Shown here: one piece after another, positions 2,413-9,489 of the stretch
Layout of the letters: each line of letters begins with the position of its first letter
Numbering within the stretch: position 1 is the stretch's first letter
From: an uncultured Oscillospiraceae bacterium
Lineage (GTDB): Bacteria; Bacillota; Clostridia; Oscillospirales; Oscillospiraceae
Assembly (NCBI GenBank): GCA_947627325.1
Contig: CANQVO010000010.1
Location: forward strand, 1-64,000
Length of the DNA: 64,000 bases
Direction: 5' to 3'
Made by a program: the position numbers and the translations under genes
The notes under the pieces: model-generated
Database searches by the model: none
Seen by the model: the letters and a program-made list of their open reading frames with translations, nothing else
Told to the model about the DNA's origin: nothing

Positions 2413-2470
2413 GATAAAATCAAAAAGAGCGACAGCCTTCTCCCCGTGGAAAAGCACCATCGCTCTTTCA
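2413..2470 (-). promoter_or_regulatory. glnA leader with terminator / competing hairpin (putative ANTAR target)
   Basis: On the minus strand, AAAGAGCGA (2460-2468) can pair with TCGCTCTTT (2424-2432), which runs into TTGATTTT: a terminator inside the 5' leader. The same AAAGAGC can instead pair locally with GCTTTT, closing a six-base loop GATGGT. The two structures exclude each other, as expected for an antitermination switch. The loop lacks the classical A at position 1, so the match to the ANTAR two-hexaloop motif is imperfect. Confidence 0.65.
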
Positions 2471-2476
2471 CGGGGC

Positions 2477-2505
2477 ATTATACCGCCGTTTTGCAAGGGT
2501 GTCAA
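2477..2505 (-). promoter_or_regulatory. glnA promoter
   Basis: A perfect consensus on the minus strand: TTGACA at 2500-2505, a 17-bp spacer, and TATAAT at 2477-2482. Transcription would start near 2470, just before the leader hairpins. Confidence 0.9.
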
Positions 2506-2725
2506 CGGCGAATTTCATTTTTTGCGGATTTTTGTCAGACATGACCCCTATTTTTGAAATTCCAGCTTGACCTTCGTGCAAATTGCTCATACCGCCTCTC
2601 CCCCGCCCCGGGCCTCTCCGGGCGGGGTGGCCCCCCGGACCGGGGCGGCATAGACTATACACGGGGGCCATCCGCCCCCGGTGGGGCGACGGCCATCCCG
2701 ACATTTTGGGATCGGAGGGAGACCC

Positions 2726-4450
2726 ATGGGAAACAAAGCGGCATGGCTGCACCGATGGCTGGCGCTGCTGTTGACGACCGCCCTGCTCCTGCTCCTGGGC
2801 GGGAGCGCCGCCCGGCGGCCGGAGGCCCAGGCGGCGGAGGATGAGGAGTGGGTACAGCGGTGGGAGACCCGCTGGTGCCACGCCTGCGGCCGGGAGAGCC
2901 TGTTTTGGGTGATGTATCTGCCCCTGGACGGGGAGTTCCACCAGGTGCAGACCATGTGCCTGGCCCCCGACTGCGGCGCCATCAACGGCGATCTGCCGGA
3001 GGAGGACGAGGGGCACTGGAACAACGTGTTCCGCCCCGAGCCCCACGCCCTTTCCGCCCAGGTCGTCCAGCCCACCTGTACCCAGGGGGGCTACACCGTC
3101 TACACCTGCGAGGGGTGCGGATACCGCCGCCAGGGGGACGAGACCCCCGCCGCCGGACACCGCTTTGGGCCCTGGGTGACCCAGGTGGAGCCCACGGCGG
3201 AGCGGGAGGGCGTCCAACAGCGGACCTGCGAGGTCTGCGGCGCCACGGAAACAACACCCCTGCCCCGGCCCACGCCGGAGCCAACACCCGAACCGACGCC
3301 AGAACCTACGCCGGAGCCGACACCTGAACCGACACCCGAGCCGACGCCGGAGCCAACGCCGGAGCCCACGCCCGAGCCGACGCCCGAACCGACGCCCGAG
3401 CCCACGCCGGAGCCCACGCCGGAGCCCACGCCCGAACCCACGCCCGAACCCACGCCCGAACCCACGCCGGAGCCCACGCCTGAACCCACGCCCGAGCCCA
3501 CGCCAGAACCAACGCCGGAGCCGACACCTGAACCGACACCCGAGCCGACGCCGGAGCCGACGCCGGAGCCGACGCCGGAGCCCACGCCCGAACCCACGCC
3601 GGAGCCGACACCTGAACCCACGCCGGAACCTACACCCGAGCCGACGCCCGAACCTACGCCGGAGCCGACGCCCGAGCCGACACCAGAGCCGACACCAGAG
3701 CCGACACCTGAGCCCACGCCCAAGCCTACGCCGGAGCCGACGCCCGAGCCCACGCCCGAGCCGACACCTGAACCGACGCCCGAACCGACGCCAGAACCGA
3801 CGCCGACGCCAACGCACACGCACAGGCCGAGGCCGGGGGGCGGCGCGGCCGGGGCGGGGTGTGTGGGGCCCTATATCCGGGGGACCCCGGCGGGGACCTT
3901 TGAGCCGGAGCGGGCCCTGACCCGGGCGGAGACGGCGGCGATGCTGGCCCGCCTGCTGGCCCAGGCCCGGCGGGAGCCGATCCGGGGGCCGGGCGGCGCG
4001 TTTGCCGACGTACCGGCGGACGCGTGGTACGCGGGCGCGGTGGAGTACCTGGCGGAGCGGGGGGTGACCCGGGGACGGGAGGGCGGCGTGTTCGACCCGG
4101 AGGCGGCCATCACCCACCGGGAGTTCGCCGTGCTGGCGGCGCGGTTCTACCTCGCCGCGGGCGGGCAACGCTCCCGGGAGCCCCCAGCCGCGCCGGAAGG
4201 CGACTGGGCGGCCCAGGCCCTCCAGGCGGCGGCGGAGATGAGCTGGCATCCGGGGGACGAGGGGATCGGGCTCTGCCCCGACTGCCCCGTGACCCGGGCG
4301 GAGGGCGTGGTCATCCTCAACCGCGTGCTGGGGCGAACGCCGGACCGAAGCGCCCAGGGCAGTCGCCCGCAAAGCGCCTTTTCCGATGTGGGCCCGGACC
4401 ACTGGGCCTGGTACGACATTCTGGAGGCGGCCGGCGTCCGCGGTCCTTAA
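2726..4450 (+). CDS. SLH surface protein with Cys-rich head and (PTPE)n stalk
   Basis: A 574-residue secreted protein. A signal peptide ([10 protein letters not shown] core, residues 1-34) is followed by a Cys-rich head containing WCHACG, a CLAPDC pair, [10 protein letters not shown] and RTCEVCG. This is the CxxC pattern of small zinc ribbons common in clostridial surface proteins. About 180 residues of PTPE repeat follow, then a basic [11 protein letters not shown] linker and up to three SLH motifs: [39 protein letters not shown], and a final [15 protein letters not shown]. The SLH part would anchor the protein to secondary wall polymer, with the PTPE stretch acting as an extended wall-spanning stalk. 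ATG 2726 follows GGAGGGAGACCC. The ligand of the head domain is unknown. Confidence 0.85.
3269..3810 (+). repeat. 12-bp coding tandem repeat (PTPE), about 45 units
   Basis: A degenerate 12-mer encoding Pro-Thr-Pro-Glu is repeated about 45 times. Almost all variation is at third codon positions, apart from one Lys variant (PTPK) near 3720 and a PTPTPT end. The synonymous scrambling suggests the repeat is old rather than a fresh slippage product. Confidence 0.95.
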
Positions 4451-4594: not shown

Positions 4595-4624
4595 TTGACA
4601 GGCCGGGGGCGGCGGGCCTATAAT
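4595..4624 (+). promoter_or_regulatory. Promoter of the cobalamin-riboswitch transcript
   Basis: TTGACA at 4595-4600 and TATAAT at 4619-4624 with an 18-bp GC-rich spacer, ending about 14 bp before the riboswitch P1 stem. Upstream, 4451-4594 holds only a GC-rich hairpin without a T-run and no gene. Confidence 0.88.
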
Positions 4625-4637
4625 GAAAGTCCAAACA

Positions 4638-4837
4638 GCATGGTGACCGCGCCTCTGTCCCCCGGCAGAGGCGGGGATGAGGGAATCCGGTGGGAACCCG
4701 GAGCAATACCCGTTGCCGTATGCATGGGAGGACGCCGTTCATGGCGCGAGCCGGTCATTGGGAGCGATCCTGAGAAGGCGGAGCGGCGGCCGCGGGGCCA
4801 GGGCCCCAAACTGTGCGAGCCGGAAGACCTATCATGC
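4638..4837 (+). promoter_or_regulatory. Cobalamin (B12) riboswitch
   Basis: The conserved elements occur in order: GAGGGAATCCGGTG (from 4679), CCCGGAGCAATACCCG, a CATTGGGA core, TGAGAAGGC, and the B12 box AGCCGGAAGACCT (4818-4830). P1 closes between GCATGGTGA (4638-4646) and TATCATGC (4830-4837). A strong terminator lies 50 nt downstream, so the switch should act at transcription: cobalamin-bound RNA favours termination and low cobalamin gives expression. The controlled gene is the SLH/DUF4430 protein at 4984. Confidence 0.93.
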
Positions 4838-4885
4838 TCACAGGGGCCCGGATCAGCGCGCCCAGGCGCACGTCGCGGAAAAGTC

Positions 4886-4983: not shown

Positions 4984-7900
4984 ATGCGAAAGACAAGCAC
5001 ACGGATCCTGGGCCTGGCCCTGGCCCTGGCGGTACTGCTGGGGCTTCTGCCAGGGGTCGCCGCGGCGGCGGGGGGCGCGCTGGAGGGGCTGGGGACGGAG
5101 GAGAGCCCCTACCTCATCGCCGACGCGTCCGACCTGGCGGCGTTCCGGGACCTGGTGAACGCCACCGCCTCCAGCGCCGCCTGGGCCAAGCTGACCGAGG
5201 ACATTGAACTCTCCGGGGCGTGGACCCCCATCTCCAATAGCAACTATGTGACCGAGGCCTACGCCGGGACCTTTGACGGGGACGGCCACACCATCTCCGG
5301 GCTGTCTGTCAGCAGTACCAAGACTAGCCAGGCGCTGGGGCTGTTCGGCGTGGTGAACGGCGCCACCATCCGCAACCTGAAGGTGGAGGGGACCGTCACC
5401 TCCAATGGCAACTATAACGGCGGCATCGTGGGCAAAAGCCAGGGGGCGGTCACCGTCCAAAACTGCTCCTTCGCCGGGCAGGTCAGCGGGAACTACGCCG
5501 GAGGGATCGTGGGCCGGATCAACGCCGGGTCGGTGAACATCGACCGCTGCGCCAACCTGGCCGATATCACCGGCACCTACGCCGCCGGGATCCTGGGCTA
5601 CGGCTCGGCCCCGGGCAGTCAGATCTCCAACTGCTACAACACCGGCACGATCACCGGCTCCACCCGCGCCGGCGGCATCGCCGGACAGGCCCACAACAAC
5701 ACCGCCATCTCCAACTGCTACAATGTGGGCCCGCTGGCGGGGACCGCCTCCACCAAGGGCGGCGTATGCGCCTTCAACAACCAGTCGGTCACCAACTGCT
5801 TCTACTTAGACGGCGACGTGGAGGCCCCCGGCGGCAGTACCCCCAGCGCCGAGGGCGCCATCTCCAAAATCGAGAGCCCCGAGGCGCTTCTGAAAAAGCT
5901 GGGGGACGCCTTCGCGGCGGACGAAAACCACGTCAACGACGGCTGGCCCATCCTCGCCTGGCAGGCGGGGGCGGCCCCGGCCCCCAAGGACCCCCATCTT
6001 GAGGTCACCGGCCCCGCCGCCCTCTACATGGTGAACAGCGGGGCCCAGCCCACCGCCACGCTGACGGCCCGGTGGGTGGACATGGAGGCGGCGCCGGTGA
6101 CCTGGTCGCTGCTCCGCGGTCAGGACGTGGTGTCGTTGACCTACCCGGAGGGCGCGGGGGCCAATCACGAGAGCGTCATCCTCCAGGCCCAGGCCCCCGG
6201 CTATGCCACCGTCCAGGCGGAGGTCGGCGACTACACCGCTCAGGCGGAGATCGCCGTCTACCCCTACGTCACCACGGCGGAAATCGCCGGGACGGTGGCC
6301 GCGGGCCGAACGGTCCGGGCCCAGGTGAACATCCTGGGCGGCGGGGAGTACGACTACGACGCCTTCCCGGCGCTCCAATTCCAGTGGCGGGTGCTGTCCG
6401 GGGAGGACTATTCCAGCGGCAACACCGCCAATTACCAGGACATCCCCGGCGCCACCGGCCAGACCTACGCCATCCCGGCGGAGCTGGCGGGGGACTACCT
6501 CTCCTTCCGGGCCAGCTACGGCGGCGAGAGCGTGACCCCCAACCGCACCTACCTCGTCGCCACCGCCGCCCGGGGGGCCCTGATGGACGACAGCGCCGCC
6601 CTGGACCTGCCCGATGAGCTCCGGGAGGCCACCGTTTTGACCCTGCCCTCGGTGGGAGAACAGGGCTCGGCCATCTCTTGGGAAAGCGACCGCCCCGACC
6701 TCATCGACCCCACCACCGGGGCGGTCACCCTGCCCCAGCCGGGGGAGGATGACGCGACCGTCACCCTCACCGCCACCCTGACCTTGGACGGCGAGGAGAC
6801 CACCCGCACCTTCTCCCTCCTGCTCCACGCCCGCCCCCGTGGGCCCCAGGACGACCTGGCCGACGCGGCGGCGGCCCTGGGGGCGTGGTACAAGTTATGC
6901 CCCGTCTACGGCGCGGATGACAACGTGACCACCATGCTGGCCCATGATCTGGCCGACCAGGGGTTTGAGGGGATCGGCGTGGCGGTCAAGGCGGTGGAGG
7001 AGGTCTACGGCGGGGCGGCCATCGCCCCGGACGGCGGCCTCACCTACTTCTACGCCGACCCCAACACCACCCCCGCCGTCCCCATGGGCAGCTTCCAGGT
7101 CACCTTCACCCTGTCCAAGGGCGGCGCCAGCCTGGACTACGGCCCGGTGAGCGTCCTCGTGCCCTGGGACGTGGAGCGGGTCAAGGAGACCATGCGGGCG
7201 GAGATTTTGGACAAGGTGGCGCTGGCCGACGGCCCCGTCACCGCCGACCTCTCCCTGCCCCGGGTGGTGGACGGCAAGCGGTGGACGCTGATCGCCTGGA
7301 CCTCCTCCGACCTGGCCGCCATCTCCGTCAGCGACCGGGACCAGTCCACCGCCGACACCCTCTTTGACCCCTACGTGGGCGTGGTGACCCCGGGGGAGGC
7401 GGACAAGGTGGTGACCCTCACCGCCGCCTTCACCTTCCAGCTCACCGGCGACGTGACCGGCCGGGAGGAGCCCATCGTCCTCTACAAGGTCTTCCCCGTC
7501 ACCGTCCCGGCCCTGGAGAAGATCCAGGCGGACCGCGTCCGGCAGGAGCTCCTGGACAAGCTGGACCGGGGCTTTGCCGCCAAGGGGTTGACCGACGCGG
7601 TGACCGGGGAGCGGCTGGAGCCGGATGAGGACGGGGTCTACACCGTCTCCCACGACGTGCAACTCCCCACCACCGGGGACTTCGGCGTGGACGGCAAAGA
7701 CTACCCCATCACCATCACCAGCGACAACGAGGCCGTGGCCCAGGCCCCCGGCGTCCGCAACGCCGCCCGGGTGACCGTCCTCCGCCCCGGCGTGGGGCGG
7801 CCCGACGGCCTCGCCACCGTCACCGTCACCCTGGCCGACCGAGACACCGCCCTCACCGCCTCCCGCTCCTTCACCCTCCGGGTCCCCGCCCTGACCCAAG

Positions 7901-9489
7901 CGGAGGTAGACGGGGAGCTGGCCCTGATGGCGCGGGTCCGGGCGGCCTACTTCGACGGCATCCGGGGGGAGAACGCCGCCCGGGACGACGTGCGGACCGA
8001 CCTGGCCCCCTTCCTGGAGGTCTATGAGGACGAGAGCGGCGCGCTGGTGTGGGTCCGGGACAGCCGGGAGCAGACGGGCCGGGGCATCGTCCCCACGCCC
8101 ATAGAGGGCTGGGAGGATCTGGAGCTGTGGCGGCTCTTTAAGTCCAGCAACCCCAACGTGGTCAGCCACGAGACCCTGCGGGTCACCCGCCAGGACCAGG
8201 CCAAGGCGGTGACCGTCACCAGCTATCTCTCCAGCGAGACCCTGGGCCGCTACGGGGAACTCTATCAGCGCGACCCCGACACCTACGCCCAGTACGCCGA
8301 CCTCGCCGGGCTCTACTACCAGGAGGTCACCACCGATGCCGCCGTCCCGGCGGAGGCGGCCCGCGCCGCCGCCCTCTCCCCGGCCGGGACCATGGTGGTC
8401 CGGGGCCTCAGCGACCCCGACAGCGCCATCCCCGTGACGGAGACCCTGAACGTCTCCTTCGTCCTCACCGGCCTGGACGGCCAGGTGTGGATCCCCGCCA
8501 CCACCTACACCGGTCTGGACGAGGCCTCCACCATCTATGACCTGTTCACCCGCGCCCTGACCGACCACGGCTGCACCGCCGTGCGGGAGCGGGGCACCTA
8601 CATCGTGTCCGTCTCCGGCGCGCCGGGCGTTCTCGCCGAGAAGCAGTACGGCCCCCGCTCGGGCTGGATGTACCGGGTCAACGGCGCGATCCCCCAGGTC
8701 TACATGGGCGCCTGCCCACTCCACGACGGCGACAAGGTCCAGGTGTTCTACACCCGGGACGCCAGCGTGGACGACCCCGACTGGACCTGGCCCACCGACG
8801 ACCCCGCGGACGAGCCTGGGGATGACCCAAGCGACGACCCTACGGACGACCCCGCCGACGTTCCATCCACGCCCGGCCAAAGCCACTCCTCCGGCTCCGC
8901 CCACCGCCGGGACGAGGCGGCGGGCTCCCAGGACGAGGCCCAGGAGGCCCAGCCCGGGCAGGGAGAAACGCCCGCCGCGAAGGTCTTTGCCGATGTGGCG
9001 GCGGGCAGCTGGTATGAGGGCGGCGTGTCCTTCGTGGTGGAGTGCGGCCTGTTCCAGGGGGTGGCCGAGGGCCGCTTCGCCCCGGAAATCCCCATGACCC
9101 GGGCCATGCTCATGACCGTGCTGGCCCGGCTGGACGGCCAGGACACCGCCTCCGGCGGGACCTGGTATCAGCCCGGCGTGGACTGGGCGGTGGCCGCCGG
9201 CGTCTCCGACGGCGCCGCGCCGGACGCCCTCATCACCCGGGAGCAGCTGGCCGTCATGCTCTACCGTTACGCCCAGCGCCTGGGCCTGCCCACCGCCGGC
9301 CAGGACAGCCTGCGGAGCTTTGCCGACGGCGGCCAGATCGCCCCCTGGGCCCAGGACGCTATGGCCTGGGCGGTGGACCAGGGCATTCTCAACGGCCGCT
9401 CCGGCGGCGTTCTGGACCCCGCCGCCTCCGCCACCCGCGCCGAGGCCGCAGCCATGCTCCAGCGCTTCGCCGCCCTCCTGCCGGGATAA
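4984..9489 (+). CDS. B12-riboswitch-controlled SLH surface protein with transcobalamin-like (DUF4430) domain
   Basis: A 1501-residue secreted protein. Order: signal peptide (residues 1-29, cleavage near GVAAAAGG); GLUG-type repeats at roughly 90-260 (GTFDGDGHTISGL, NYNGGIVGKSQG, NYAGGIVGRI); bacterial Ig-like modules, including atrophied-Ig types such as ISWESDRPDLIDPTTGAV; a DUF4430 domain at about 1156-1260 (STIYDLF, SGWMYRVNGAIP, LHDGDKVQVFYTRD); an Asp/Pro linker; then three C-terminal SLH motifs (FADVAAGSWYEGG, TWYQPGVDWAVAAG, FADGGQIAPWAQDAM). DUF4430 resembles the C-terminal beta domain of transcobalamin and intrinsic factor. Together with the riboswitch this suggests a wall-anchored corrinoid-capture protein; that role is inferred. 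ATG 4984 follows AAGGAGGAG. The gene is monocistronic, flanked by terminators. Confidence 0.85.
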   Translation: MRKTSTRILGLALALAVLLGLLPGVAAAAGGALEGLGTEESPYLIADASDLAAFRDLVNATASSAAWAKLTEDIELSGAWTPISNSNYVTEAYAGTFDGDGHTISGLSVSSTKTSQALGLFGVVNGATIRNLKVEGTVTSNGNYNGGIVGKSQGAVTVQNCSFAGQVSGNYAGGIVGRINAGSVNIDRCANLADITGTYAAGILGYGSAPGSQISNCYNTGTITGSTRAGGIAGQAHNNTAISNCYNVGPLAGTASTKGGVCAFNNQSVTNCFYLDGDVEAPGGSTPSAEGAISKIESPEALLKKLGDAFAADENHVNDGWPILAWQAGAAPAPKDPHLEVTGPAALYMVNSGAQPTATLTARWVDMEAAPVTWSLLRGQDVVSLTYPEGAGANHESVILQAQAPGYATVQAEVGDYTAQAEIAVYPYVTTAEIAGTVAAGRTVRAQVNILGGGEYDYDAFPALQFQWRVLSGEDYSSGNTANYQDIPGATGQTYAIPAELAGDYLSFRASYGGESVTPNRTYLVATAARGALMDDSAALDLPDELREATVLTLPSVGEQGSAISWESDRPDLIDPTTGAVTLPQPGEDDATVTLTATLTLDGEETTRTFSLLLHARPRGPQDDLADAAAALGAWYKLCPVYGADDNVTTMLAHDLADQGFEGIGVAVKAVEEVYGGAAIAPDGGLTYFYADPNTTPAVPMGSFQVTFTLSKGGASLDYGPVSVLVPWDVERVKETMRAEILDKVALADGPVTADLSLPRVVDGKRWTLIAWTSSDLAAISVSDRDQSTADTLFDPYVGVVTPGEADKVVTLTAAFTFQLTGDVTGREEPIVLYKVFPVTVPALEKIQADRVRQELLDKLDRGFAAKGLTDAVTGERLEPDEDGVYTVSHDVQLPTTGDFGVDGKDYPITITSDNEAVAQAPGVRNAARVTVLRPGVGRPDGLATVTVTLADRDTALTASRSFTLRVPALTQAEVDGELALMARVRAAYFDGIRGENAARDDVRTDLAPFLEVYEDESGALVWVRDSREQTGRGIVPTPIEGWEDLELWRLFKSSNPNVVSHETLRVTRQDQAKAVTVTSYLSSETLGRYGELYQRDPDTYAQYADLAGLYYQEVTTDAAVPAEAARAAALSPAGTMVVRGLSDPDSAIPVTETLNVSFVLTGLDGQVWIPATTYTGLDEASTIYDLFTRALTDHGCTAVRERGTYIVSVSGAPGVLAEKQYGPRSGWMYRVNGAIPQVYMGACPLHDGDKVQVFYTRDASVDDPDWTWPTDDPADEPGDDPSDDPTDDPADVPSTPGQSHSSGSAHRRDEAAGSQDEAQEAQPGQGETPAAKVFADVAAGSWYEGGVSFVVECGLFQGVAEGRFAPEIPMTRAMLMTVLARLDGQDTASGGTWYQPGVDWAVAAGVSDGAAPDALITREQLAVMLYRYAQRLGLPTAGQDSLRSFADGGQIAPWAQDAMAWAVDQGILNGRSGGVLDPAASATRAEAAAMLQRFAALLPG

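Follow-up and report, generated by a model that had tools for sequence, protein, structure and literature searches.

Some ANTAR proteins take their input from a partner protein and not from a kinase, as in the AmiC-AmiR and NasS-NasT pairs. The first of these pairs also features in PMC8934654 and the second in PMC3795266. Described RNA targets of ANTAR proteins carry two stem-loops (PMC3369931, PMC8164766), and in the case of EutV both hairpins are required in vivo, with induction of eutP being lost upon deletion of the first (PMC3369931). Walshe et al. likewise report that antitermination by EutV needs both hexaloops; they also reduce the minimal binding motif to a single such loop, and raise the question of what single hexaloops do (PMC8934654). 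Both NasR and EutV prefer a loop closed by a C:G pair with a G at the fourth position (G4) (PMC7496416, PMC8934654). With respect to nitrogen metabolism, NitR from the glnA-nitR cluster of C. saccharobutylicum is described as an ANTAR regulator inducing the genes of the glutamine synthetase (GS)/GOGAT cycle on nitrogen limitation by antitermination (PMC6316151), and the ANTAR gene Clo1313_2030 in the GS-GOGAT cluster of C. thermocellum has been proposed to code for an ammonia-sensitive antiterminator (PMC4676874).

The locus considered here lies at one end of a 64,000-nucleotide stretch of DNA from an uncultured Oscillospiraceae bacterium (hereinafter the window), with its promoter, glnA, the ANTAR gene, amt and both leader hairpins all on the minus strand. 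The claim of a perfect glnA promoter made in the first-pass annotation is borne out by a sigma-70 type TTGACA-17-TATAAT element (2505-2477) with 12 of 12 consensus bases. The sequence directly 3′ of its -10 box is GCCCCGTGAAAGAGCGATGGTGCTTTTCC, and the likely transcript start falls at 2471-2469, 6-8 nt 3′ of the box, which places the 5′ end of the RNA almost at the hexaloop hairpin. The first gene, glnA (2371-1043), codes for a type I glutamine synthetase of 442 aa (Pfam Gln-synt_N and Gln-synt_C). It is directly followed, as the same annotation had stated, by a co-directional gene for an ANTAR-domain protein of 180 aa (1001-459), giving the NitR-type arrangement in which an ANTAR gene neighbors one for glutamine synthetase. 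Third in line comes an ammonium transporter gene, the 5′ part of which occupies 356-1 and the remainder contig C12, whose end overlaps the start of the window's contig (C10) by 77 identical bases. As the frame runs on into a PII domain on C12, this gene codes for an Amt-PII fusion. GlnA shows 88-89% identity to homologues of other genera (four loci) and 75-78% to those of four congeners; horizontal exchange of the glnA-ANTAR operon is possible.

On the opposite strand, a gene for a protein in which a long (PTPEPT)n repeat precedes SLH-like sequence (2725-4450, plus strand) starts between the glnA promoter and a cobalamin riboswitch (4595-4850, plus strand; Rfam RF00174, 57.8 bits), which itself lies directly behind a perfect promoter. 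The ORF after this riboswitch (4984-9489, plus strand) codes for a very large, secreted-looking protein, the C-terminal part of which we take to resemble a transcobalamin-type domain with SLH repeats; it is possibly a surface B12-capture protein.

The glnA leader combines a single hexaloop hairpin (2467-2450, minus strand; AAGAGC-GATGGT-GCTTTT), a P2-like candidate antiterminator with the loop GATGGT at 2461-2456, with an overlapping intrinsic terminator (2469-2422, minus strand) ending in a U tract at 2426-2422. When growing transcripts are folded, P2 forms first (about -4.6 kcal/mol; up to about 32 nt) and the terminator (-27.7 kcal/mol) follows once its 3′ arm has been made; this succession and the overlap agree with the mutually exclusive hairpins proposed from the initial reading. 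Given these energies, the weaker hairpin must be held by something in order to win. The terminator segment folds better than 200 of 200 dinucleotide shuffles (z -5.7), and its stem, earlier put at 9 bp, is in fact far longer, with 21 pairs in the fold including G-U pairs. CCCCGTG/CACGGGG arms lengthen P2 on the DNA, but these are mostly upstream of the likely start site. The leader shares with the dual-hexaloop ANTAR targets the G4 of the loop, the loop-closing C:G pair (C2462-G2455) and the overlapping intrinsic terminator, and differs from them in the absence of an A at position 1. Thus, of the two departures from the ANTAR consensus that the first-pass annotation had seen in this loop, the one at position 1 (G, not A) stands, while that at position 4 falls away, the base there being the consensus-typical G. 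Counting against a genuine hexaloop in the window, G1 could pair with U6, shrinking the loop to four.

The product of the ANTAR gene matches PF03861 at 54.7 bits (cut-off 27.3), this being the only match to that family in the genome. Its AlphaFold2 model (mean pLDDT 91.6) comprises a receiver fold and an ANTAR domain, with 177 residues aligning to EutV (6wsh; Z 16.2, rmsd 6.2) and residues 1-130 aligning with many receiver domains. The receiver fold is recognized structurally, the Pfam Response_reg model not being matched; likewise, a phmmer search with the single protein recovered no solved structure, but a profile did find structures. In a profile alignment with Rv1626 and EutV, the position of the phospho-acceptor Asp is taken by Gly53, beside the invariant Cys52, and the Asp is absent at that position from 17 of the 17 sequences aligned, making phosphorylation by a kinase unlikely. 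As in proteins of the pseudo-receiver type, activity should instead depend on a binding protein or a small molecule. Among the RNA contacts of EutV, Met172 and Tyr164 correspond to the invariant Met160 and His152, respectively (with a numbering offset of two inferred from the alignment), whereas R142, K143 and K147, by which the second protomer of EutV contacts the hairpin, are N, E and R in the window protein. These changed residues, with the His in place of Tyr164, weigh against the antitermination reading proposed below; they may also go with a different reading of a single hexaloop.

For relatives, we collected 80 loci from genome records with an ANTAR profile, 77 of which have a GlnA match, and 40 stretches from genomes of the family. 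As for conservation, 108 leaders were reduced to 90 by removing a group with distant GS and duplicates, and to 83 by setting aside the 7 whose promoter had fewer than 9 matches. A hexaloop closed by C:G, with a purine at position 1 and G4, shortly follows the -10 box in 68 of these 83 promoter-bearing glnA leaders, where the purine, G4 and the C:G pair were themselves rules of selection; a T run accompanies the hexaloop in 63 of these 68. A stricter test for a hexaloop together with an overlapping terminator finds both in 52 of 80 leaders as compared to 26 of 400 dinucleotide shuffles, and C:G closes the loop in most of its hits even though it is not a selection rule there. The absence of both hairpins from related genomes, which the first-pass annotation had named as grounds for abandoning its reading, is therefore not what is seen: both are kept in relatives.

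The loop consensus in relatives is RANGGY, closed by C:G on a covarying stem. Of 63 loops, 44 have A at position 1 and 19 have G, one or the other being required by the selection; among 40 hexaloops picked with no rule on the loop, 32 have G4 and 28 have A1. The latter count omits loops in which the first and last bases could form a Watson-Crick pair, and hence those of the GAAGGC type. A first parse of the leaders, in which loops were picked by stem length only, had mixed nested terminator hairpins with P2 and was rejected. In alignment A2, which holds 48 of the 63 leaders (near-duplicates, long insertions and weak stems having been left out by hand), 93.8% of the cells of the P2 stem are paired, with 25 double-sided changes (3.4 in shuffles), and one pair that fails in 0 of 48 rows reads AU in 19, GC in 19 and GU in 10. 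As the shuffles keep relatedness, these covariation numbers, like those above for hexaloop and terminator together, are to be taken as support and not as probabilities. The terminator stem also covaries, in the one register counted. An alignment of window-type leaders (A3) was dropped, its 3′ arm being misaligned. Five leaders from Lacrimispora and relatives head glnA-ANTAR operons with a strong promoter and a terminator; they are of a different, GGGGTGGTGC type and fit the hexaloop rule poorly.

A covariance model of the terminator form from 48 leaders (R1) matches the window leader at 2422-2468. As a target finder in the window's own genome it returned 15 matches, and 11 other places inspected are mostly ordinary intergenic terminators or antisense to genes; hence, R1 lacks specificity when used by itself. 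A loose pattern of promoter plus loop hit 107 of the 120 family genomes; as many of the matches listed resemble ribosome-binding sites (of the CAAGGAGG type), it was replaced by a stricter one defined by promoter, spacing and loop only, TTGACA-TATAMT-RRCRANGRYGYY. The strict pattern occurs in 57 of the 120 genomes sampled from the family and in 51 of the 195 sampled from the class, its reversed form having 0 matches in the former sample and 1 in the latter, and in the window's own genome it picks out the glnA leader alone. Among the 61 distinct sites with loci, the stem reaches 4 bp or more at 51, the pattern itself favoring three base pairs of it, and an overlapping terminator is present at 52, as compared to 124 of 610 shuffles of the downstream sequence.

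For the sites with loci (29 loci from the family search and 28 of 30 from the class search), the genes behind them were identified with NCBIfam and Pfam. These comprise glnA, GSIII, glutamate synthase, a class-II amidotransferase subunit, gdhA, amt, amt-PII, asnA, asnB, purF, purC, guaA, pyrG and glmS; part of the glutamate synthase, asnB and first-found sites were supplied by a structural scan and not by the pattern. By family match, or by eye from the protein start, 22 of the 29 family loci have an ammonia- or glutamine-handling gene, 2 an ATP-grasp gene and 5 others. Beyond these functions, the module precedes an amino-acid permease gene once and atpB of the F0F1 ATP synthase in two genomes (L234, L272), one of which (G047) is 73% complete and has no ANTAR match. 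It also precedes two genes for circularly permuted ATP-grasp proteins (L240, L243), which suggests, from gene context, a link of this family to nitrogen metabolism.

The distribution of the module follows that of ANTAR genes across samples spanning 106 genera and 61 families. With kinship ignored throughout, it is found in 37 of 54 ANTAR genomes as compared to 1 of 25 without ANTAR in the family sample at a completeness of at least 90 (p 2.5e-8), in 49 of 72 versus 8 of 48 among all 120 family genomes, and in 47 of 107 versus 4 of 88 in the class sample (p 7.7e-11). Viewed from the motif, and again ignoring kinship, an ANTAR gene is present in 47 of 51 motif-bearing class genomes versus 60 of 144 others. 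A strict match is lacking from 17 of the 54 and 60 of the 107 ANTAR genomes, and 4 class genomes have a match and no ANTAR gene detected by the profile. Among the congeners, G077 and G122 have neither an ANTAR match nor the module, their glnA leaders being plain; G121 and G123 have an ANTAR gene and no module before glnA, which argues against a strict link.

A probable second attenuator lies between the ANTAR gene and amt (446-404, minus strand), where R1 scores 26.1 bits in the window search. It has the loop GAGGGT (439-434) on a 3-bp GC stem with an overlapping terminator, and the segment folds at -30.2 kcal/mol (z -5.0 versus shuffles); no promoter was seen between it and the amt ATG at 356. 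We rate it as probable only, because the site is not among the matches of the whole-genome R1 search, unlike the window search, and its hairpin on its own folds no better than shuffles. By inspection, hexaloop-terminator modules precede amt in all five other loci (three being near-identical) that have an Amt match close to the ANTAR gene, in tandem in two. Tandem single-hexaloop attenuators, each with its own terminator, were seen by inspection in three leaders of amt or GS-like genes (L098, L116, L069).

We posit that the locus likely represents phosphorylation-independent ANTAR antitermination via a single hexaloop, controlling a nitrogen regulon. Polymerase would start a few nucleotides before the hairpin, which by itself (about -4.6 kcal/mol) would lose to the terminator (about -27.7 kcal/mol), so that transcription would stop before glnA. 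When active, the co-transcribed ANTAR protein would grip the C:G-closed RANGGY hexaloop, with a contact to G4 predicted by homology to EutV, and hold it until polymerase has passed the U tract, allowing expression of glnA and the ANTAR gene, and of amt-PII past the second site. Being encoded in the operon, the protein would be subject to positive autoregulation, with its input perhaps coming from GS or PII, and in relatives the same module would control the nitrogen regulon. To the anatomy, conservation, covariation, mutual exclusivity, gene context, ANTAR association and missing Asp, all of which are observed directly, this proposal adds that the window's ANTAR protein binds the hairpin and that one hairpin suffices, both of which we infer; the need of EutV for both hairpins in vivo (PMC3369931) weighs against the latter. 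Antitermination as the polarity and nitrogen limitation as the signal are suggested by the hairpin geometry and by the report on NitR, and nitrogen-responsive control as such by the downstream genes and the same report. Control may be self-contained, as the first-pass annotation had it, in that the receiver has no residue for a kinase to modify.

It is unlikely, in our estimate, that the ANTAR protein binds the hexaloop and acts otherwise, by protecting a short transcript or by answering the opposite signal with expression in nitrogen excess. The glutamine consumers in the regulon would fit a nitrogen-excess switch, and the presence of consumers (purF) and makers (glnA) under one switch, which is hard to fit to one simple signal, also weighs against our own proposal. 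However, hexaloop and terminator overlap in the manner described for ANTAR antitermination, and induction by NitR is reported to occur on nitrogen limitation (PMC6316151).

The number of hexaloops bears on whether this is a classical dual-hexaloop target with an overlooked first hairpin, either because the start lies further upstream or because the partner has diverged. A two-hexaloop rule (six-base loops, linker of 2-25 nt) was used to look for partner hairpins, and the window transcript has one hexaloop. No upstream RNNG hexaloop is found within the transcript in any of the 68 glnA leaders, in which 1-12 nt separate the assumed start from the P2 stem, leaving no room for a partner. A second hexaloop occurs at just 1 of the 61 distinct pattern sites, and the promoter position is fixed across dozens of leaders. 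We thus consider an overlooked partner quite improbable, even though the described ANTAR targets (PMC3369931, PMC8164766) all have two stem-loops and the exceptional site, L220, in the leader of an amt gene in G087, has two adjacent hexaloops (AAGGAC and AAAGGC). L220 offers a natural contrast for comparing one versus two hairpins. Under the single-hexaloop reading, the leaders constitute a large natural set of one-hexaloop attenuators whose start sites are fixed and whose ANTAR genes match, so that the role of single hexaloops becomes directly testable.

The common substrate of the target genes, glutamine or ammonia, would also suit a metabolite riboswitch (e.g., for glutamine), a T-box or a leader-peptide attenuator with the ANTAR gene nearby by coincidence. 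We regard this as very improbable: Rfam family models have no relevant match over the glnA leader or ten related loci, the conserved part is an 18-nt hairpin, below the size of known aptamers, and the module is nearly absent from genomes without an ANTAR gene. That the promoter is simply followed by an ordinary intrinsic terminator or a DNA palindrome, with the hexaloop as a by-product of repeated stem sequence, is barely credible, for although R1 also matches ordinary intergenic terminators elsewhere in the genome and the terminator arm repeats similar letters from which a P2-like stem can arise, the loop sequence, loop length, closing pair and promoter distance are kept while the stems covary, the module associates with ANTAR genes and the downstream genes are functionally coherent.

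More tentatively, single-hexaloop antitermination might extend to a class-wide nitrogen regulon of Clostridia, with kinase-free ANTAR proteins, single hexaloops and GS or the PII domain of the co-transcribed transporter as the sensor, a version to which we give only a modest chance. Here, glutamine-free GS (or PII) would free or activate the ANTAR protein. Glutamine synthetase is a partner of DNA-binding regulators in Bacillus. If the version were true, glutamine synthetase would also be a partner of an RNA antiterminator, and the second hexaloop would be dispensable for ANTAR antitermination.

From NitR, nitrogen genes, that for glutamine synthetase among them, are already known to come under ANTAR control. 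The features that appear to be new are the use of one hexaloop at the transcript start, how widely this form is spread, the set of genes it targets and the kinase-free protein; a regulon of single-hexaloop attenuators has no prior report in the open-licence PMC literature, which leaves most subscription journals outside, and Rfam has no match over the glnA leader or ten related loci. NitR is alike in being an ANTAR regulator found with glutamine synthetase genes, a likeness that goes by its description, RNA targets aside, and the available description mentions neither a single start-site hexaloop nor a regulon with purF, guaA, pyrG, glmS and asnA (PMC6316151). Clo1313_2030 is similarly clustered with GS/GOGAT genes, its proposed role being based on annotation and expression only, and the account consulted does not describe an RNA element (PMC4676874). 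The EutV, AmiR and NasR systems (Ramesh et al. 2012, PMC3369931; Walshe et al. 2022, PMC8934654), as far as those accounts go, share with the present one the ANTAR protein, the G4 hexaloop with C:G closure, the P2-like hairpin exclusive with an overlapping intrinsic terminator and the nitrogen genes downstream. In contrast to them, there is one hexaloop here and not two, it sits directly at the transcript start, its position 1 is A or G, and the receiver domain lacks the Asp that EutW phosphorylates in EutV. In this last respect the closer parallel would be with AmiC-AmiR and NasS-NasT, as the missing Asp suggests control by a partner protein, the candidates here being the operon-encoded glutamine synthetase or PII domain. 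The attenuators also yield a candidate nitrogen control circuit, with a target list, for Oscillospiraceae, Lachnospiraceae and other gut Clostridia.
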